Below are positions 4,237 to 12,100 of a DNA stretch of 64,000 nucleotides, one piece after another (the first letter of the stretch is position 1; every line of letters starts with the position of its first letter). A program made the position numbers and the translations under genes. This DNA is from Marinicella marina (GTDB lineage: Bacteria; Pseudomonadota; Gammaproteobacteria; Xanthomonadales; Marinicellaceae). Under the pieces are notes generated by a model. That model saw nothing but the letters and a program-made list of their open reading frames with translations, was not told the DNA's origin and made no database searches. The stretch covers positions 372,001-436,000 of the forward strand of contig NZ_JASJNC010000002.1 in the NCBI RefSeq assembly GCF_030065545.1, read 5' to 3'.

Positions 4237-4746
4237 ATGTTTTCAAAACTGATTAAACCCAAAGAAAGCTTTCAATCCAGCTACATCACTTACATCGAAG
4301 AGTTGGGTGACGAAGAACGCTATCCGTTCCCTTTGGATTTCGATCACAGTGACTTCGGAGCCATGCTGGATAAAATCAATGATTTTGAACAGGGCAGAAA
4401 TTTACCTGAAGGTTATGTTGCCAGTTCAACCTATTGGCTCATTGAGGATGATGAACTCATTGGTGTATCGAACCTGCGTCATGAACTGAATGAGTCATTA
4501 AAGACGGCTGGCGGTCATATTGGCCTGGGCATCAGGCCCAGTTATCGTGGCCAAGGCTTAAGCATTCAACTGCTGAACTTGACACTGGAGAAAGCCAAGA
4601 AAAAAGGCATCAACCCTGCCCACATACATTGTTACAAAGACAACACCGCTTCGGCTCGCATGATCCGGGCTTGTGGTGGAGAGTTGGATTCAGAGCTTGA
4701 TGAGGGTGGTGTGTTGGTGCAGCGTTATTTGGTTGATTTGTCATAA
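4237..4746 (+). CDS. GNAT-family N-acetyltransferase
   Basis: A 169-residue protein with a GNAT fold. The acetyl-CoA-binding motif A is seen near residues 100-115 (IRPSYRGQGLSIQLL, with the R/Q-x-x-G-x-G/A pattern), and motif B near 130-145 (CYKDNTASARMIRACGGE) is typical of RimJ/RimL- or streptothricin-acetyltransferase-like members. Substrate unknown. It is separated from the ABC operon by 30 bp and may belong to that transcript. The arginine promoter and leader begin within 30 bp of its stop, so there is no room for a distinct strong terminator between them. Confidence 0.85.
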   Translation: MFSKLIKPKESFQSSYITYIEELGDEERYPFPLDFDHSDFGAMLDKINDFEQGRNLPEGYVASSTYWLIEDDELIGVSNLRHELNESLKTAGGHIGLGIRPSYRGQGLSIQLLNLTLEKAKKKGINPAHIHCYKDNTASARMIRACGGELDSELDEGGVLVQRYLVDLS

Positions 4747-4773
4747 AATTTTTGCCGCATACAAAAAAAGTAT

Positions 4774-4803
4774 TTGCGCATGTTTAAAAAAGCGTGTTAC
4801 ATT
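4774..4803 (+). promoter_or_regulatory. Candidate promoter of the arginine operon
   Basis: A TTGCGC hexamer (4774-4779) and TACATT (4798-4803) are separated by 18 bp. This would start transcription near 4810, roughly 20 nt before the leader-peptide ATG. The match to sigma-70 consensus is moderate, but the position fits an attenuator whose leader ORF begins at 4829. No other hexamer pair in the 80 bp gap fits as well. Confidence 0.4.
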
Positions 4804-4828
4804 ACAATCAAATCACATAAAAAATAAG

Positions 4829-4939
4829 ATGAAAAATAACAGCAACAACCTATTTTTAAATAACAGCTCATTGCCAAGCAGCAATGCTGTGGTTGTTCGT
4901 CGTCGCCGTCCGTTAAGACAAATGGAGCTCTTTGGTTAG
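4829..4939 (+). CDS. Arginine operon leader peptide (36 codons, Arg-rich)
   Basis: A short ORF between the GNAT gene and argF'. It encodes 36 residues: an Asn/Ser-rich first half, then VVVRRRRPLRQMELFG and a TAG stop. Codons 24-27 (4898-4909) are four consecutive Arg codons (CGT CGT CGC CGT) and codon 30 is a fifth, the rarer AGA. A run of codons for the end product just upstream of a terminator is the hallmark of ribosome-mediated attenuation, as in trp, his, leu and ilv leaders. The ribosome binding site is weak. The last codons (GAG CTC TTT GGT) double as the antiterminator strand. The frame is open further upstream, but this ATG fits the predicted transcript start. Confidence 0.8.
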   Translation: MKNNSNNLFLNNSSLPSSNAVVVRRRRPLRQMELFG

Positions 4940-4986
4940 GCGTGTGATTTAGTAAAAAACTAATTTTAAAAACCCGGCCAAAGAGC
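4927..4986 (+). promoter_or_regulatory. Antiterminator pairing of the arginine attenuator
   Basis: Bases 4927-4935 (GCTCTTTGG), the end of the leader ORF, are the exact reverse complement of 4978-4986 (CCAAAGAGC). Two G-U pairs extend this to 4937/4976, giving 11 consecutive pairs. The 3' partner covers the end of the ascending arm, the loop and the first bases of the descending arm of the terminator hairpin, so the two structures exclude each other. A ribosome stalled at the Arg codons would leave 4927-4937 free and allow antitermination. One that reaches the stop at 4937-4939 would mask it and allow termination. A small AT-rich hairpin (4949-4963) lies in the enclosed loop. The complementarity is seen; the mechanism is inferred. 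Confidence 0.75.
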
Positions 4987-4997
4987 CGGGTTTTTTT
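4971..4997 (+). terminator. Intrinsic terminator (attenuator) before argF'
   Basis: Arms AACCCGGC (4971-4978) and GCCGGGTT (4985-4992) enclose a six-base loop, and a run of seven T follows (4991-4997). Extra A-T pairs are possible at the base. It lies 31 bp after the leader stop codon and about 50 bp before the argF' start, so it would cut off the whole arginine operon unless the antiterminator forms. Confidence 0.85.
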
Positions 4998-5046
4998 ATA
5001 CCCGGGGATTTTGGCTTTATTGAAATGTCGCAAGACAGGAAAAGAC

Positions 5047-6078
5047 ATGATAAAGCATTTTTTAACCACCGAAGATTGGAGCCAACAAGATTTGCATGAA
5101 ATCTTGGATGTGGCTGGCTACCTCAAACAGCATCCGTTACAAAACCACCTGCAAGGTAAGTCCATTGCTTTGTTGTTCCTTAACCCATCCATGCGCACCC
5201 GCACCTCATTTGAACTGGGCATGCAACAACTCGGCGGCATGGCCATCGTGTTACAACCGGGAAAAGACGCTTGGGGCATTGAATTTGAACCCCATCAGAT
5301 TATGGACGGTGATGCTGAGGAACACATCATTGAGGTGGCTGGGGTGCTTTCATCCTATGTCGATATGATTGGTATCCGCGCCTTTCCAGCGTTTCAAGAT
5401 TGGTCATTTGACCGCCAAGACCAAACCATCAAGGCTTTGGCAGCGCATGCATCAGTTCCGGTGATCAACATGGAAACCATCGTTCATCCCTGCCAAGAGT
5501 TGGCTTTGATGATGACCATTAAAAATCACCTCAAAACACCCAAGAAAAAGAAATTTCTACTGACTTGGACATATCACCCGAAACCACTGAACACGGCAGT
5601 GGCCAACTCTGGCTTGTTGATCAGCAGCAAATTTGGCATGGATGTGACGCTGCTGTGTCCCAACGAACATTACTTGCTTGATCAGCGCTATTTGGCTGCT
5701 GCCCATGCGCAGTGTCAAGCCCACGGTGCAAAGTTTGAAGTCACCCATGACATTGAACAAGCCTATGCCGGTGCCGACTTTGTTTATGCCAAGAGCTGGG
5801 GTGCTTTGCCTTTTTATGGTGATCCTGCGGCTGAATTTAAACAACGCAAAGCCTACCAGCACTTCATTGTTGATGGTCAAAAGATGGCCCTGACCAACCA
5901 TGCCAAATTCAGTCATTGTTTACCGTTGCGCCGTAATGTCAAAGCCACTGATGAAGTGATGGATGCTGATTACTGTGTGGCCTTGGAAGAGGCTGAAAAC
6001 CGCTTGCACGTGCAAAAAGCCATGATGCTCAATTTGATGAACCAAGACGTGATGAATCTAACATCACAAAATAATTAA
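5047..6078 (+). CDS. argF': N-acetylornithine carbamoyltransferase
   Basis: Transfers the carbamoyl group of carbamoyl phosphate to N-acetyl-L-ornithine, giving N-acetyl-L-citrulline; cytoplasmic arginine biosynthesis. It has 343 residues, close to the Xanthomonas enzyme. The carbamoyl-phosphate motif SMRTRTSFELG, then GVRAFP-like, INMETIVHPCQEL and HCLP motifs are present. The TWTYHPKPLNTAVANS segment, instead of the DGxNNV segment of ordinary ornithine carbamoyltransferases, marks the acetylornithine type. Lys 299 in RRNVKATD corresponds to the lysine that is carboxylated in the Xanthomonas enzyme. I start at this ATG, preceded by AGGAAAAG, rather than at an in-frame TTG at 5011 that falls right behind the terminator. 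First structural gene of the attenuator-controlled operon. Confidence 0.93.
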   Translation: MIKHFLTTEDWSQQDLHEILDVAGYLKQHPLQNHLQGKSIALLFLNPSMRTRTSFELGMQQLGGMAIVLQPGKDAWGIEFEPHQIMDGDAEEHIIEVAGVLSSYVDMIGIRAFPAFQDWSFDRQDQTIKALAAHASVPVINMETIVHPCQELALMMTIKNHLKTPKKKKFLLTWTYHPKPLNTAVANSGLLISSKFGMDVTLLCPNEHYLLDQRYLAAAHAQCQAHGAKFEVTHDIEQAYAGADFVYAKSWGALPFYGDPAAEFKQRKAYQHFIVDGQKMALTNHAKFSHCLPLRRNVKATDEVMDADYCVALEEAENRLHVQKAMMLNLMNQDVMNLTSQNN

Positions 6079-6088
6079 GGAATTTACC

Positions 6089-7291
6089 ATGAAAAATAAA
6101 ACCATAGTTTTGGCATTCTCAGGTGGACTAGACACCAGTTTCTGCCTGTACCAATTGGCCCAAGATGGCCACCAAGTTCATACCGTATTTGTCAACGCCG
6201 GTGGTGTGTCGCCTGAGGAAGTGGCAAATATCGAACAACGTGCCAATGAATTGGGCGCGCACCAACACCACAGCATCAACGCCCAACAAGCCATATGGGA
6301 AGAATTTGTCAAACCATTGATTTACTCAAAAGCCAAGATGCGTGGCGAATACCCCTTGTTGTGTTCGGATCGCTATGTCATCGTCAAGTTATGTTTACAG
6401 CTGTGTGATGAATTGAACACCCCGTATTTTGCCCACGGTTGTACCGCCATGGGCAACGACCAGTTCCGTTTTGATCAGACTGTGCACTCATTGGGTGACT
6501 ACCAGGTGATTGCCCCAATCAGAGAATTACAATCTGAAGTCGATGGCAACATCCGTGACTATGAACTGGCAGCGCTTAATAAAGCCGGTTTTGAAATGTC
6601 ATCTCAGCATCAAAAATACTCAATCAATGAAAACATGCTGGGTGTGACCATTTCAGGCAGTGAAATTGATCAGTTTCAAGCGCCCACTGATGACAGTTTG
6701 TGTTGGGTCAAAAACAAAGACCAATGGCCTGATAAACCGCTGCAATTACAATTGGGTTTCACCGCCGGTGTTGCCACCCACCTTAATGGCAGCCCCATCA
6801 ATGGGCCTGACTTATTACAGCAGTTAAACCACCAGCTGGCGGCCTATGGCATTGGTAGGCACATCTACACCGGCGATGTCAGTATTGGCTTGAAAGGCCG
6901 CATCGTGTTTGAGTGTCCGGGCATTGACGGTTTGATGCAAGCCCACAAAGCACTGGAGGATTTGGTGAACTCGAAATTACAGAATCAATTCAGGGCACAA
7001 ATGGCCGAACGCTGGGCAGAATTGGTCTATCAAGGCTTTTTCTATGAGCCGCACAAAACTGATTTAGAGGCCTACCTGGCCAGTTCACAATCGCACGTCA
7101 CAGGCACCGTCACCTTGGCCACTTCAGGTGGTTCATTATTGGCCACTGCAGTTGAGTCACCTTACATCATTCAATCCCCTGAATCGGTTTATGCCCAATC
7201 CTGCGATTGGTCACCCGCTGAAGCTTTGGGCTTCATTAAACTCACCGGTCAAAACGCGACCTTGGTCAACCAAATCAGGAGGGCATCATGA
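6089..7291 (+). CDS. argG: Argininosuccinate synthase
   Basis: Joins citrulline and aspartate with ATP to form argininosuccinate. The 400-residue protein opens with the PP-loop AFSGGLDTSFCL, which binds ATP. Further conserved stretches are AHGCTAMGNDQFRFD, YSINENMLG, and a C-terminal half carrying the expected citrulline/aspartate-binding region (GRHIYTGDVSIGLKGR). A ribosome binding site AAGGA lies 7 bp upstream. It follows argF' by 10 bp and overlaps the deacetylase gene as ATGA. In this pathway its citrulline substrate comes from deacetylation of N-acetylcitrulline by the product of the next gene. Confidence 0.95.
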   Translation: MKNKTIVLAFSGGLDTSFCLYQLAQDGHQVHTVFVNAGGVSPEEVANIEQRANELGAHQHHSINAQQAIWEEFVKPLIYSKAKMRGEYPLLCSDRYVIVKLCLQLCDELNTPYFAHGCTAMGNDQFRFDQTVHSLGDYQVIAPIRELQSEVDGNIRDYELAALNKAGFEMSSQHQKYSINENMLGVTISGSEIDQFQAPTDDSLCWVKNKDQWPDKPLQLQLGFTAGVATHLNGSPINGPDLLQQLNHQLAAYGIGRHIYTGDVSIGLKGRIVFECPGIDGLMQAHKALEDLVNSKLQNQFRAQMAERWAELVYQGFFYEPHKTDLEAYLASSQSHVTGTVTLATSGGSLLATAVESPYIIQSPESVYAQSCDWSPAEALGFIKLTGQNATLVNQIRRAS

Positions 7292-8406
7292 AACAGGCAA
7301 CAAAGACAAAGTCAACAGCTGCGCTGCAGGATTCGACCATGGCAGCGATCAAAAAGCACCTGAAATTCTTGGTCGGTCAAGACACGTGTAACCCACCAAG
7401 AAAAATTAAACATTCAGATGTCTTGTTTGTTGAGCTGGAAAGATTTTTTAAAGCATGTGGGTTCACCGTCACCTTGGCCGATTTTACTGATGGCCATGTG
7501 GTGTTTTATGCCTTGAGGGGAACGCCGAATGTGCTGTTCAATGTGCATTTGGATACCGTGCCAGTCAGTGAAGGTTGGCAGCATGATCCGTTTGAATTAA
7601 CCGAGGTTGATGAGCGTTTTTATGGGCGTGGTGTCTGTGACATCAAAGGTGGCGCGGCTTGCTTGATGGCCTTGGCGGAAGCCTGTGATAACGACATGGC
7701 GGTGTTGTTTACTACTGATGAAGAAGGTGCTAATAATTGTTGTGTCAGTGAGTTTATCAATGGTTATGACATCTCTATATTCGACCAAGTCGTGGTGGCT
7801 GAGCCTACACAGTGTCTGGCGGTACTGGAACACCGCGGTTATGTGTCGGTGCATGGAGACTTTACTGGACTCAGTGGCCATTCCTCATCGGTCAAAGCTT
7901 TGGTGGGAAATGCCATTCATCAGGCCAATGCTTGGTTGAACCATGCCATGACTTATGCCGTCAGCAAGCAGTCCGCAGCTAACCCAGCAGGTATTTGTTT
8001 TAATCTGGGCTACATCAAAGGCGGCGAGAAAAATAACATGATTGCTGAACAGTGCCAGTTGGGCTTCAGTGTCAGGGTGCCTGCAGGGCAGTCTTCGGCT
8101 GATGCCTTTGAAACATTGATTCACTTGGCGGGTGATTCGGGTGATTGGCATTGTTCCATGCTGGCACCTGCTTTACCAGAAGACCTGAGTGTCAAACAAG
8201 AAGCTGCGTTGTTTTGTCAAAAGCATGGTTTAAGCATCAGTAAGCCAGTGGATTTTTGGACCGAAGCGGCTTTATTTTCCCAAGCAGGTTTGCCCGCATT
8301 GGTCTTGGGTCCAGGTAATATTGAACAGGCTCATACCGTCGATGAGTGGGTGGCCAAAGAACAATTAATGACCTGTTATAAAATCTATAGTGAGGTGCTG
8401 GGGTGA
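7288..8406 (+). CDS. argE: N-acetylcitrulline/acetylornithine deacetylase (M20 family)
   Basis: Zinc-dependent amidohydrolase of 372 residues. Metal and catalytic motifs are present in order: NVHLDTVP, GRGVCDIKGG and TTDEEGANN, followed by the M20 dimerisation domain containing HSSSVKALVGNAI and a late metal-ligand region. In bacteria with acetylornithine carbamoyltransferase, the related enzyme removes acetate from N-acetylcitrulline to give citrulline. Its place between argG and the kinase gene supports that role here, though the residues alone do not separate it from a classical ArgE. It overlaps argG by 4 bp and the next gene by up to 4 bp. Confidence 0.88.
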   Translation: MKQATKTKSTAALQDSTMAAIKKHLKFLVGQDTCNPPRKIKHSDVLFVELERFFKACGFTVTLADFTDGHVVFYALRGTPNVLFNVHLDTVPVSEGWQHDPFELTEVDERFYGRGVCDIKGGAACLMALAEACDNDMAVLFTTDEEGANNCCVSEFINGYDISIFDQVVVAEPTQCLAVLEHRGYVSVHGDFTGLSGHSSSVKALVGNAIHQANAWLNHAMTYAVSKQSAANPAGICFNLGYIKGGEKNNMIAEQCQLGFSVRVPAGQSSADAFETLIHLAGDSGDWHCSMLAPALPEDLSVKQEAALFCQKHGLSISKPVDFWTEAALFSQAGLPALVLGPGNIEQAHTVDEWVAKEQLMTCYKIYSEVLG

Positions 8407-9761
8407 AAATGAAATCTGAGAATCAAAAAATCATTCACAGTGCTTTGAATCAGTTGACCAATTCTCAAGAAGCCAAACACTATTTAAATCGTTATCAAAA
8501 TCAGCATGAAATGAACTTCGCGGTGGTTAAAGTGGGCGGTGGTATTCTGGCCGATGAGTTGCAGACATTAGCTGAATCTTTGGCATTGTTATCCAATCTG
8601 GGCTTGAATCCAATCGTGATTCATGGTGCCGGTGTGCAGCTGGATGAGGGCTTGAAACAGGCAGGTATCCAGACGGTAAAAAAAGCTGGCCTCAGGGTCA
8701 CCGATGAAGCCTGTATGCAAGTGGTCAGGCCGATCATGTATCAAGTCAATCAACAACTGGTCAGCGCCTTGGAAGAGCAGGGAGTCAGAGCCACGGGTGT
8801 GGTGCATGGCGTGTTTGAATGCGATTATCTGAATCAAGCTGAGTTGGGTTTGGTGGGCGCGGTGCAAAAAATTCACCTCACACCGATCAGACAAGCTTTA
8901 CAAACCGGCGCAATTCCGGTGTTGAGCTGTTTGGGTGAAACGTCCAGTGGTCAAGTGGTTAACATCAACGCCGATGTCGCCACCCGTGAACTGGTGTGGA
9001 AAATCAACCCGCATAAAATCATCTTCGTGACTCCGACTGGAGGCATTTTAGATGGCAATAACCACATCATTTCCGCGATCCAATTGAATAATGACTTCAA
9101 ACACTTGAACCAACAGGATTGGTTGCATTCAGGGATGAAATTAAAACTGCAACAAATCCAAGACATGCTGGCGCCCATGGCAATCAGTCATTCAGTTTCA
9201 ATCACTTCGAGTAAGAACTTGGCCAGAGAGCTGTTTACCCACAAAGGGGCTGGCACTTTTATTAACATGGGTGAACAAATTGCTGAAAGTACGGCTTTGA
9301 CCCCGGCACTTGAAGCGGCGCTGACAGAGGTGTTTCAAAATGCTTTTGGTCGAACCTTCAAACCAGCGTTTTTAGCCCAGCTGCAGATTAAGAAAATTTA
9401 TCTGGCCGAGTCGGGTCGGGCTGCAGCGATGGTGACAGTGGGCCATGATGGTCACGCTTACTTGCATAAGTTTGCGGTGACTCAAGCCGCGCAAGGTGAG
9501 GGTTTGGCAGCCAGTTTGTGGCAGCAGATTAAAACTGATCACCCTAAGCTATATTGGCGCTCTCGGGTGGATAACAGCATCAATGCTTGGTACTTTAAAC
9601 AAGCCGATGCTTCGATGAAGTCGGCCCAAGGCGATTGGGTGGGGTTTTCATATGGCTTAACGCCCACTGAGTCTTTGGGTTGTATGCAACACGCTTTTAT
9701 GACTGATTCTGGCTGGCAACAACAGGCTGTTGATCATACCCAGGGGGTGAAACATGCCTGA
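8403..9761 (+). CDS. argB: Bifunctional acetylglutamate kinase / N-acetylglutamate synthase
   Basis: One protein of 452 residues for the first two steps of acetylated arginine synthesis. The N-terminal amino-acid kinase domain (about residues 35-290) shows VVKVGGGILA, VIHGAGVQLDE and an ATP-binding FVTPTGGILD region. The C-terminal part (about 320-440) is a GNAT/NAT domain with HAYLHKFAV and QGEGLAASLW, matching the fused enzymes of Xanthomonas that resemble vertebrate NAGS. Such enzymes are usually arginine-sensitive. The GTG used here overlaps the upstream stop; an ATG two codons later behind GGGGTGA is equally plausible. The argC start lies within its last codons, so translation is probably coupled. 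Confidence 0.92.
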   Translation: MKMKSENQKIIHSALNQLTNSQEAKHYLNRYQNQHEMNFAVVKVGGGILADELQTLAESLALLSNLGLNPIVIHGAGVQLDEGLKQAGIQTVKKAGLRVTDEACMQVVRPIMYQVNQQLVSALEEQGVRATGVVHGVFECDYLNQAELGLVGAVQKIHLTPIRQALQTGAIPVLSCLGETSSGQVVNINADVATRELVWKINPHKIIFVTPTGGILDGNNHIISAIQLNNDFKHLNQQDWLHSGMKLKLQQIQDMLAPMAISHSVSITSSKNLARELFTHKGAGTFINMGEQIAESTALTPALEAALTEVFQNAFGRTFKPAFLAQLQIKKIYLAESGRAAAMVTVGHDGHAYLHKFAVTQAAQGEGLAASLWQQIKTDHPKLYWRSRVDNSINAWYFKQADASMKSAQGDWVGFSYGLTPTESLGCMQHAFMTDSGWQQQAVDHTQGVKHA

Positions 9762-10758
9762 ATCAAACACCCAAACAAAAAAAATCAAAGCCGCTATTTT
9801 TGGTGCCAGGGGTTATGTCGGTGTTGAGTTGATTCAAATACTGGATACACACCCGTTGGTCGAACTGGTGGCGGTTTATTCTCGTGCCCATGAAGGCCAA
9901 AAAGTCAGTGATCAAGTCGCTGGTTTTTCTGATGAGACCTTGACCTACGAAGTGGGCGATTTTGCCCAGCTGCCGCAATTGGCTTTGGACGTGTTGTTTT
10001 TGGCATTGCCTGATGGCTTGGCCAAGCAGCACGATGCGCTGTGGCAAAGCATGGCTGCTGACACCGTGATCATCGATCTCAGTGCCGATTACCGTTTCGA
10101 TACTGCATGGACTTATGGTCAGCCAGAAACCCATGCCAGCGATTTAAGCAGCGCCCGGCTTATTGCTAATCCAGGCTGCTATGCCACCGGTATGCAGTTG
10201 GGCTTGCGACCGCTGCTGCCATACCTGGCGGATGCCAGCGTGGATGTGCCCACTGCCTTTGGTGTTTCCGGTTACAGCGGTGCTGGTACTTCGCCATCCG
10301 ATAAAAATGACCCAGCGCGGTTGGCTGATAACCTGTTGGCTTATAAACCCACCGGGCACACCCATGAAAAAGAAGTGGCGCATGTGTTGCAGCATAATTT
10401 GCGGTTTATGCCGCATGTGGCGTCTCACTTCAGGGGCATTCATTTGACCCTCTCTGGCAAGTTAAATATTAAATTATCGGCTACTGAGCTGCAGCACTTG
10501 TTTGAACAGTATTACCAACAACTGCCACTGATTCAGGTACAAACAGTGCCGGCTGAGATACAACAAGTGGCTAACCATCACCACCTGCTGATTGGTGGTT
10601 TTGCGGTGTCTGAAACTGAGCCTGAACATTTTGTGCTCAACGTGGCATTGGATAACCTGCTCAAGGGTGCCGCCACCCAAGCCACCCAAAACATGAATTT
10701 AGCCTGCGCCGCTGCGTTTGGCTGTGAACCATTAACAGGAATTTACCATGCCAAATAA
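9754..10758 (+). CDS. argC: N-acetyl-gamma-glutamyl-phosphate reductase
   Basis: Reduces acetylglutamyl phosphate to the semialdehyde with NADPH. The 334-residue protein has the N-terminal Rossmann motif IFGARGYVGVEL, the catalytic Cys 142 in NPGCYATG, and a later conserved stretch HVASHFRGIHLTL. A strong ribosome binding site AGGGGGTG precedes the ATG, which overlaps the end of the kinase/synthase gene by 8 bp. Its own end overlaps argH by 11 bp. The subsequent aminotransferase step (argD) is not encoded in this window. Confidence 0.94.
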   Translation: MPESNTQTKKIKAAIFGARGYVGVELIQILDTHPLVELVAVYSRAHEGQKVSDQVAGFSDETLTYEVGDFAQLPQLALDVLFLALPDGLAKQHDALWQSMAADTVIIDLSADYRFDTAWTYGQPETHASDLSSARLIANPGCYATGMQLGLRPLLPYLADASVDVPTAFGVSGYSGAGTSPSDKNDPARLADNLLAYKPTGHTHEKEVAHVLQHNLRFMPHVASHFRGIHLTLSGKLNIKLSATELQHLFEQYYQQLPLIQVQTVPAEIQQVANHHHLLIGGFAVSETEPEHFVLNVALDNLLKGAATQATQNMNLACAAAFGCEPLTGIYHAK

Positions 10759-12100
10759 CTCAAACGATTTGAACACCAAACAGAACAAAGAACACACCAA
10801 GACGCACCACAAAAATGACGTGCTTTGGGCCGCAGAGGGTGCTCAAAAACTGGCACCTGGTGTGATGGCCTACCTGGCCGGCGAGGATGTGGTTCTCGAT
10901 CAAGCATTGTTCGTCTACGACATCCAAGGCACCCAAGCCCACCTGCAGGGGTTGGCCCAAATTGGCATCATCAGTGAAAGCGAATATGCAGCGTTTATTG
11001 ATGCTTTGGATGAGTTAAAAACAGCGTTCGAACAAGGTACGTTCAGCCTGGATGAGCGCTTTGAAGACGGCCATTCAGCGATTGAGTTTTATCTCACGCA
11101 AAAGCTCGGCGAAGTGGGTAAAAAAGCCCACACCGGCCGCTCACGAAATGACCAGGTGCTGACTTGTCTGCGTTTGTATATGCAGGATCAAATGGCAGTG
11201 GTAAAACAGCTTGGCATCGATGCTATAGAGGTGCTGATTGAGTTGGCCGAAGGTCACCAAGACACCATGATGCCGGGTTACACCCACCTGCAACGCGCCA
11301 TGCCCAATACCGTGGCCGTTTGGTTGTTGGGTTTTGCTGAAAGCCTGATGGATGATGTGCAACACCTCAACAGTGTGATGCACTTGTTAGATGCATCGCC
11401 TTTGGGGACCGCCGCGGGTTTTGGTGTGCCATTACAACTGCCCCGGGCCGAGACGGCCGCAGCCATGGGCCTCTCTCGTGTGCAGATTAATCCCGTCAGC
11501 GCGCAGAACTCGCGCGGAAAATACGAACTGATCTGTTTACATGCCTTGTCCTACCTGCTGTTGGATGTGCGCCGTTTTGCTTGGGATTTGAGTTTGTTCA
11601 TGACCAGTGAATTTGATTTTATCCAAATGGGATCAAGCCACACAACCGGCTCATCCATCATGCCGAACAAAAACAACCCTGATGTGGTCGAACTGCTGCG
11701 CGCCAGCCTGTCAGTGGTCGATGGTGCTGTGCAGCAGATCCAATCACTGCTGTCCCTACCCAGCGGCTACCAACGCGACCTGCAATTGAGCAAAGAACCG
11801 CTGATCAAAGGCATGCAAAAGACCCAAGCCACCTTGGCACTGCTGCCTGAGCTGTTGCAAGCCTTAACCTTCAAAAAAGACCAGATGAAGGATGCGATAA
11901 CCAGCGAAATGATGGCCACGGATCAAGCCCTTGAAAAAGTAAAACAAGGCCAATCCTTCCGCGATGCCTACCTCGATTCCAAGCAAGACGATGAACTCAT
12001 CATCACCGCCGAACAATCTATTGACCAAAGGGTTTCGTTGGGTGGTGCGGCTAATTTGGGTTTGAACTTTTTAAGGGTGCGATTGGAGGGGTTGGTTTGA
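10748..12100 (+). CDS. argH: Argininosuccinate lyase
   Basis: Cleaves argininosuccinate into arginine and fumarate, the last step of the pathway. The 450-residue protein belongs to the fumarase/aspartase superfamily: TGRSRNDQV near residue 130, a histidine-containing GYTHLQRAMP, and the flexible signature loop GSSIMPNKNNPD with the catalytic serine at about 302-303. It is preceded by AGGAATTTACC, nearly the same spacing sequence as in front of argG. Last gene of the arginine operon; it runs convergently into the desaturase gene with only 16 bp between stops and no clear terminator. Confidence 0.95.
   Translation: MPNNSNDLNTKQNKEHTKTHHKNDVLWAAEGAQKLAPGVMAYLAGEDVVLDQALFVYDIQGTQAHLQGLAQIGIISESEYAAFIDALDELKTAFEQGTFSLDERFEDGHSAIEFYLTQKLGEVGKKAHTGRSRNDQVLTCLRLYMQDQMAVVKQLGIDAIEVLIELAEGHQDTMMPGYTHLQRAMPNTVAVWLLGFAESLMDDVQHLNSVMHLLDASPLGTAAGFGVPLQLPRAETAAAMGLSRVQINPVSAQNSRGKYELICLHALSYLLLDVRRFAWDLSLFMTSEFDFIQMGSSHTTGSSIMPNKNNPDVVELLRASLSVVDGAVQQIQSLLSLPSGYQRDLQLSKEPLIKGMQKTQATLALLPELLQALTFKKDQMKDAITSEMMATDQALEKVKQGQSFRDAYLDSKQDDELIITAEQSIDQRVSLGGAANLGLNFLRVRLEGLV

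Follow-up and report, generated by a model that had tools for sequence, protein, structure and literature searches.

We analysed a window of 64,000 nucleotides (nt) of Marinicella marina DNA (contig NZ_JASJNC010000002.1), in which a short arginine-rich open reading frame (ORF) and an intrinsic terminator precede an arginine-synthesis operon on the same, forward strand. The ORF (4829-4939) has 36 codons, reads MKNNSNNLFLNNSSLPSSNAVVVRRRRPLRQMELFG and ends in a TAG stop at 4937-4939. Codons 24-27 (4898-4909) are four consecutive Arg codons, CGT CGT CGC CGT, which form the proposed sensor, and codon 30 (4916-4918) is a fifth Arg codon, AGA. The terminator (4969-4997) consists of the hairpin AAAACCCGGCCAAAGAGCCGGGTTTT (4969-4994) and a run of seven T (4991-4997). 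A putative antiterminator strand at the end of the ORF (4927-4937) can form 11 pairs, including two G-U, with a partner at 4976-4986 that takes in the end of the terminator 5′ arm, the loop and the start of the 3′ arm, and within this pairing GCTCTTTGG (4927-4935) is the exact complement of CCAAAGAGC (4978-4986). An original prediction, made from the letters alone, had described the ORF with its Arg codons, the terminator with seven T and the complementary strand; all were recovered by script at these coordinates.

The operon downstream has the order argF′-argG-argE′-argA/B-argC-argH (5047-12100). Its first gene, argF′ (5047-6078), encodes N-acetylornithine carbamoyltransferase (NCBIfam NF003384, 521.9 bits against a cut-off of 288) and is followed by argG (6089-7291), whose product matches argininosuccinate synthase at 549 bits (NF003385), under the cut-off of 603 yet far the best match. 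The argE-type deacetylase encoded by argE′ (7288-8406; NF006439, 348 bits against a cut-off of 345) we take to be the acetylcitrulline deacetylase expected in a pathway with argF′. The remaining genes encode a fused acetylglutamate kinase/synthase (argA/B, 8403-9761; NF003387 and TIGR00761 above cut-off, Pfam AA_kinase and NAT), ArgC (9754-10758; TIGR01850 above cut-off) and ArgH (10748-12100; TIGR00838 above cut-off). The short ORF carries a run of codons for the amino acid of the operon (RRRR at codons 24-27 ahead of argF′GE′(A/B)CH), and an intrinsic terminator lies between it and the first gene. We predict that this leader is a ribosome-mediated transcription attenuator controlling the argF′ operon, to which we assign a probability of roughly 0.88.

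The arrangement stands out within the window. A detector that required three or more Arg within eight residues towards the end of a short ORF, and a stop at most 75 nt from a terminator scoring at least 24, found eight terminators and ten ORF-terminator pairs on both strands of the window, and the argF′ leader was the sole pass; dinucleotide shuffles of the window (n = 12, one strand each) yielded one pair with three Arg and none with four. When the ORF end was shuffled by mononucleotides 20,000 times, an exact complement of 9 nt arose only 20 times, and the fold of 4774-5046 was matched by 2 of 200 shuffles (z = −2.55). A generic terminator scan did not list the terminator at 4969-4997, which the leader detector does report. 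The leader peptide had no match in NCBIfam or Pfam at E values up to 0.001, and no Rfam family reached its gathering score between 4500 and 5300, where sub-gathering matches to Trp_leader, Phe_leader, Leu_leader and sRNA models (E ≤ 1) were dismissed as terminator-like sequence.

Upstream of the ORF, a promoter-like element (4774-4803) was spotted by eye, with TTGCGC at 4774-4779, a spacer of 18 nt, TACATT at 4798-4803 and TG at 4795-4796; a generic promoter scan of 4500-5200 found no sigma-70 site. The element has a counterpart at seven of the eight loci of the window's genus, the window included, L008 being the exception. In the proposed mechanism, transcription would start about 7 nt past TACATT and a ribosome would trail RNA polymerase through the leader ORF. 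When charged Arg-tRNA is scarce, the ribosome would stall on the CGN run with its front edge before the strand at the ORF end, and the freed strand would pair with the terminator and block it, such that polymerase reads into argF′. When Arg-tRNA is plentiful, the ribosome would reach the stop and cover the strand, the terminator would form, and a leader RNA of about 190 nt would be released.

Geometry and folding are consistent with these steps. A ribosome with a codon in its A site has its front edge about 13 nt further on, and the antiterminator strand of the window starts 20 nt past the point where the run's last Arg codon begins. Folding the RNA that the ribosome leaves uncovered gave a terminator probability of 0.01 for a ribosome stalled on the Arg run and 0.999 for a ribosome at the stop, such that in the model, as had been predicted, a stall on codons 24-27 frees the strand and a ribosome at the stop hides it. 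The stalled value was below 0.35 at seven of the eight genus loci. The further claim that the last residues, Glu-Leu-Phe-Gly, are fixed by RNA pairing fared less evenly: it holds at six of the eight genus loci and fails at L003 (MRLFG), at L008 (HRIFG) and outside the genus.

We then surveyed 137 regions upstream of argF′ (57, L001-L057, plus a further 80) and found, in 120 of them, a short ORF that has three or more Arg within a stretch of eight residues and ends close to a terminator. At two of these (L056 and L180) the detector took another terminator or ORF, and they were excluded from the pairing counts, leaving 118 leaders. Counted by genome, 99 of the 109 examined in the order, from 10 of 12 families, have the leader ahead of argF′, and the conserved Arg run that had been anticipated is present in all 18 genomes examined from the window's own family. 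With the families labelled as in the search tool, the counts were f1 18/18 (the window's family), f2 12/12, f3 2/3, f4 4/4, f5 3/3, f6 0/1, f7 2/2, f8 26/27, f9 3/7, f10 1/1, f11 0/3 and f12 28/28, where f2 would be Xanthomonadaceae and f12 Rhodanobacteraceae; the missing leaders in f3 and f8 are one detector failure and one contig end. Genera with the leader include Xanthomonas (L041), Stenotrophomonas (L043, L046), Pseudoxanthomonas (L042, L049), Lysobacter (L039), Luteimonas (L050, L052), Dyella (L037, L038) and Rhodanobacter (L034, L035). The last Arg codon, counted from its first base, lay exactly 20 nt from the strand in 63 of the 118 leaders and 15-24 nt from it in 99.

The 17 regions without a leader comprise L025, L030 and L185 (the latter two from one genome), L040, L057, L163, L170, L183, L150 (a contig end), L186-L188 (family f11) and records labelled as other lineages (L045, L047, L053, L054 and L055). 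Those from family f9, L163 (genome G196), L170 (G071), L025 (G058) and L030/L185 (G040), have no recognisable Arg ORF, and L163 keeps a terminator, which may reflect decay of an attenuator. The two SAR86 records (L040, 2391-2480; L057, 2390-2480) have a minimal version, in which two Arg codons stand side by side (AGA CGG), a −10-like element lies a few nt 5′ of the ATG and a strand directly past the stop is complementary to the terminator; in L057, GCTGGGTCT pairs with the terminator sequence AGACCCAGC, and the match in L040 is shorter. Two or three Val often stand before the Arg run in family f1 (most of L001-L018), and VV does so in the f10 leader (L026). An argF′ match at E ≤ 1e-60 was absent from 9 of 18 genomes of the window's genus (own genome included), such that arginine synthesis looks patchy in the genus or the assemblies incomplete.

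Beyond the order, the argF′ family was present in 7 of 274 genomes of the class, and no such leader was seen at the eight argF′ loci of these seven genomes when lists of their Arg-containing ORFs were read by eye. A sequence pattern for leaders with the strand GCTGGGT hit 2 of the 274 genomes, both from the order and both directly upstream of argF′; as this pattern misses the window itself, it shows how rare the GCTGGGT motif is, not that other attenuators are absent. The same kind of scan upstream of carA, at some loci of which (L199, L206, L212 and L217, on short contigs) the gene start was guessed, passed at 1 of 30 loci. That locus, L210, has an ORF with four Arg in eight residues beside a weaker terminator and represents either chance or a second attenuator.

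The antiterminator strand changes between lineages together with its terminator. It reads GCTCTTTGG in the window's genus (shorter in L008), CCAGGTT, TGCCAGG or TGCCGGG in the sister genus, and GCTGGGT or GCCGGGT in most other leaders, and the differing strands of the two genera are each complementary to their own terminator. In each of the 100 leaders outside f1, the vicinity of the ORF end was searched for the 8 bases that best match the 5′ arm of the terminator; this best match scored at least 15 in 92 and had all six core pairs Watson-Crick in 78. When arms were re-paired among loci with the strand chosen anew each time (1,000 permutations), the number fell to a mean of 44 (maximum 58), and to a mean of 3 when the region was shuffled. 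With the variable position excluded from the choice of strand, an A in the arm faced T in 46 of 53 leaders and a G faced C in 42 of 47, the other five having T. An earlier permutation test, biased because the strand had been pre-chosen to fit its own arm, is superseded by this repeat, which gave the same outcome. In an alignment of 87 leaders, the rows of which were pre-selected for complementarity, four of eight antiterminator pairs had changed on both sides (0 of 500 shuffles), and 94.5% of cells in the antiterminator helix and 93.1% in the terminator helix were paired. U-A to C-G, the most frequent double change, is distributed largely by family and so represents fewer events than sequences, and both states occur, still paired, within f4, f8 and f12. 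This covariation, which had been proposed as a check, backs the predicted antiterminator as mutually exclusive with the terminator.

The same data bear on a more ordinary account of the terminator, in which it ends the transcription unit of the acetyltransferase gene upstream, the ORF is incidental and the argF′ promoter lies further downstream. The acetyltransferase gene is on the same strand and ends at 4746, where a terminator would be useful to it. The ORF, strand and terminator, however, stay together upstream of argF′ and the strand covaries with the terminator, and transcription of the Xanthomonas homologue discussed below begins 2 nt ahead of the leader AUG; we consider this account highly improbable.

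Codon choice within the runs suggests what the leader would sense. Among the 118 leaders, 440 of 460 Arg codons in the runs (96%) are CGC, CGA or CGT, and 20 are CGG, AGA or AGG. CGU, CGC and, poorly, CGA are all decoded by a single tRNA whose anticodon is ICG, and the codon pattern suggests that the attenuator reads mainly this isoacceptor. In the sister genus (L009-L018), AGA makes up 42% of the Arg codons of argF′ but none of the 47 run codons. The window's genus uses mostly CGT and CGC in its runs; CGA is absent there, and AGA accounts for 4 of 40. Leaders of several families (62 in all) share the peptide block MTSRARR; at 17 such loci CGA accounts for 1.4% of Arg codons in argF′ versus 37% of those in the runs. 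CGA is the final Arg codon of the run at all 17 and, in the wider set, in 60 of 62. These counts are not independent because the sequences are related, and there may be an RNA-level reason for CGA in the runs.

The excess of CGA fits sensing by codon reading and not by peptide, which matters for an alternative in which the leader peptide, with arginine or ornithine bound in the ribosome, arrests its own translation and codon charging is not sensed. Arginine-responsive arrest peptides exist in fungi, the MTSRARR block is kept in 62 leaders, and the last Arg-Arg has Pro after it in 79 of 118. Against arrest, the peptides differ between families while the Arg run and its spacing mostly stay, and selection appears to act on codons, as the CGA frequencies of the 17 loci indicate. 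The Pro may be part of an RNA hairpin or a nascent-chain effect, and the conserved CCG may instead serve RNA pairing. Overall we regard peptide arrest as unlikely and prefer attenuation through codon reading.

In gammaproteobacteria, control of the arginine pathway is usually described as exerted by the repressor ArgR (PMC5343134). The argR search suggested by the original prediction came back empty: the window's genome, 99.75% complete, had no match to PF01316, while 9 of 14 control genomes were positive. Across the order, ArgR was found in 8 of 299 genomes, all from family f11, and in none of the 99 genomes with the leader; of the f11 genomes, the three examined carry no more than a distant argF (36-37% identity) and lack the leader. 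In a sample of the class, ArgR was present in 24 of 274 genomes, including six of the seven out-of-order genomes with argF′. Since ArgR is rare in the class, its absence alone does not predict a leader. In the present case the leader attenuator appears to stand in for ArgR.

A relative of the leader has already been catalogued as RNA. The Rfam family RF02242, the Xanthomonadaceae small RNA (sRNA) Xoo5, matched the leader in cmscan at 14 of 26 loci given whole (2 in a first set of 6, 12 in a second set of 20), with a model that starts two bases before the leader AUG and ends 5′ of the terminator; the window's own leader had no Xoo5 match in 4500-5300 at E values up to 1. The accessible text of Liang et al. 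(2011, PMC3039613) lists Xoo5 as an sRNA located between PXO_00354 and PXO_00353, the latter N-acetylornithine carbamoyltransferase, and gives a 5′ end obtained by rapid amplification of cDNA ends, a size of 124 nt and Northern bands of about 130 and 100 nt in PSA medium, both in early growth and later just the shorter one. In that text the word "leader" is absent and "attenuation" occurs once, about virulence. These data indicate that a Xanthomonas makes a short RNA from the homologous leader, with its 5′ end 2 nt ahead of the AUG. Strong promoter sites lay 4-11 nt before the ATG in 21 of 99 leaders outside f1, compared to 4, 0 and 5 of 100 in displaced controls, such that consensus scoring lends only moderate support to leaderless promoters; the leader is probably translated from near-leaderless RNA in several other families. 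With its ATG 25 nt past TACATT, the window's leader would not be leaderless by that reading.

The name sRNA Xoo5 also implies a different function, with the RNA or peptide of the leader working chiefly in trans. The listing by Liang et al. (PMC3039613) favours this, as do the trans roles that PMC7298713 describes for the Sinorhizobium meliloti trp attenuator RNA and its peptide. The features that are conserved nevertheless belong to a cis attenuator, and the matches observed sit upstream of argF′. A mainly trans-acting RNA thus seems very unlikely, although trans action may come in addition to cis attenuation.

Several observations weigh against attenuation by this scheme or limit its reach. 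The published Xoo5 sizes are about 30 nt below the roughly 160 nt expected for a terminated leader (L168 coordinates), and the cloned 3′ end of Xoo5 falls short of the terminator. Eight of the 100 leaders outside f1 lack a good strand match (score below 15), and no leader is recognisable in four of seven f9 genomes or in the single f6 genome. In the sister genus (L009-L018) the last Arg codon lies just 8-13 nt before the strand and the stalled terminator probability is 0.69-1.0, which does not fit the simple scheme and would need stalling at an earlier Arg codon. Equilibrium switching (stalled below 0.5, stop above 0.9) was predicted in just 19 of the 118 leaders order-wide, such that in most leaders outside the genus the antiterminator, which is made first, would need to form first during transcription. 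A stalled value below 0.5 was nonetheless reached by 16% of real leaders (n = 118) versus 1.5% with shuffled spacers (n = 590). By a co-transcriptional measure the antiterminator helix exceeded 0.5 in 104 of 118 leaders with a stalled ribosome and in 83 of 118 without a ribosome; we give this measure little weight, since it sets the stop state to zero by construction and a control with shuffled spacers, scored by a looser measure, passes at 55%. By the same measure, a protector hairpin is not a general feature.

Taken across the order, the comparative data lead us to favour, at somewhat better than even odds, a joint interpretation in which most families control arginine synthesis by a leader-peptide attenuator and not by ArgR, the leader is made as near-leaderless RNA in several families, it senses the charging of one tRNA-Arg isoacceptor with the poorly read CGA at the decisive position in many members, and the published sRNA Xoo5 is the leader transcript. 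If so, Xanthomonas, Stenotrophomonas, Lysobacter, Dyella and Rhodanobacter would belong to an order in which arginine synthesis is under RNA control, a function would be assigned to an Rfam sRNA, and the pattern of codons would offer a natural test of the idea that attenuators sense particular tRNA isoacceptors.

Attenuators are textbook regulators, and in proteobacteria ribosome-mediated examples govern the trp, his, leu, ilv, thr and phe operons. The leader described here resembles them in its run of the regulated amino acid, its terminator before the first structural gene and its mutually exclusive antiterminator at the ORF end, with the mechanism proposed being that of trp and his; it differs in acting on arginine and an arg operon, where ArgR might be expected. 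The original prediction knew of no arginine leader of this type, and we likewise found no attenuator for arginine synthesis described in our searches of an open-access library, which would make the class old and the arginine specificity new as far as those searches show. ArgR regulons of gammaproteobacteria control the same pathway (PMC5343134) by means of a DNA-binding repressor, which has no match in the window's genome. Xoo5 (RF02242) shares the position upstream of argF′ and the Arg-rich ORF, but it is classed as an sRNA, has a model that stops short of the terminator and does not match the window's leader. The nearest precedent for arginine is the orf34 leader of speF in Salmonella (speFL). 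Two consecutive Arg codons in orf34 sense arginine and their replacement by Lys abolishes sensing, according to PMC6386406, which shows that a pair of Arg codons suffices. Whether the Arg codons were rare or frequent made no difference there, which calls for caution over the codon argument above. Unlike the window's leader, which precedes argF′, orf34 precedes ornithine decarboxylase and governs polyamine synthesis via Rho, occlusion of the ribosome binding site and RNase G, with no intrinsic terminator (same source), and the window's leader peptide had no match to DUF2618, the family of the orf34 peptide, or to any other Pfam family at E values up to 0.001. The nearest leaderless precedent is rnTrpL/peTrpL of Sinorhizobium meliloti, which senses tryptophan instead of arginine and which, according to PMC7298713, is likewise an attenuator RNA that has its 5′ end at the leader ATG and exists as an sRNA.
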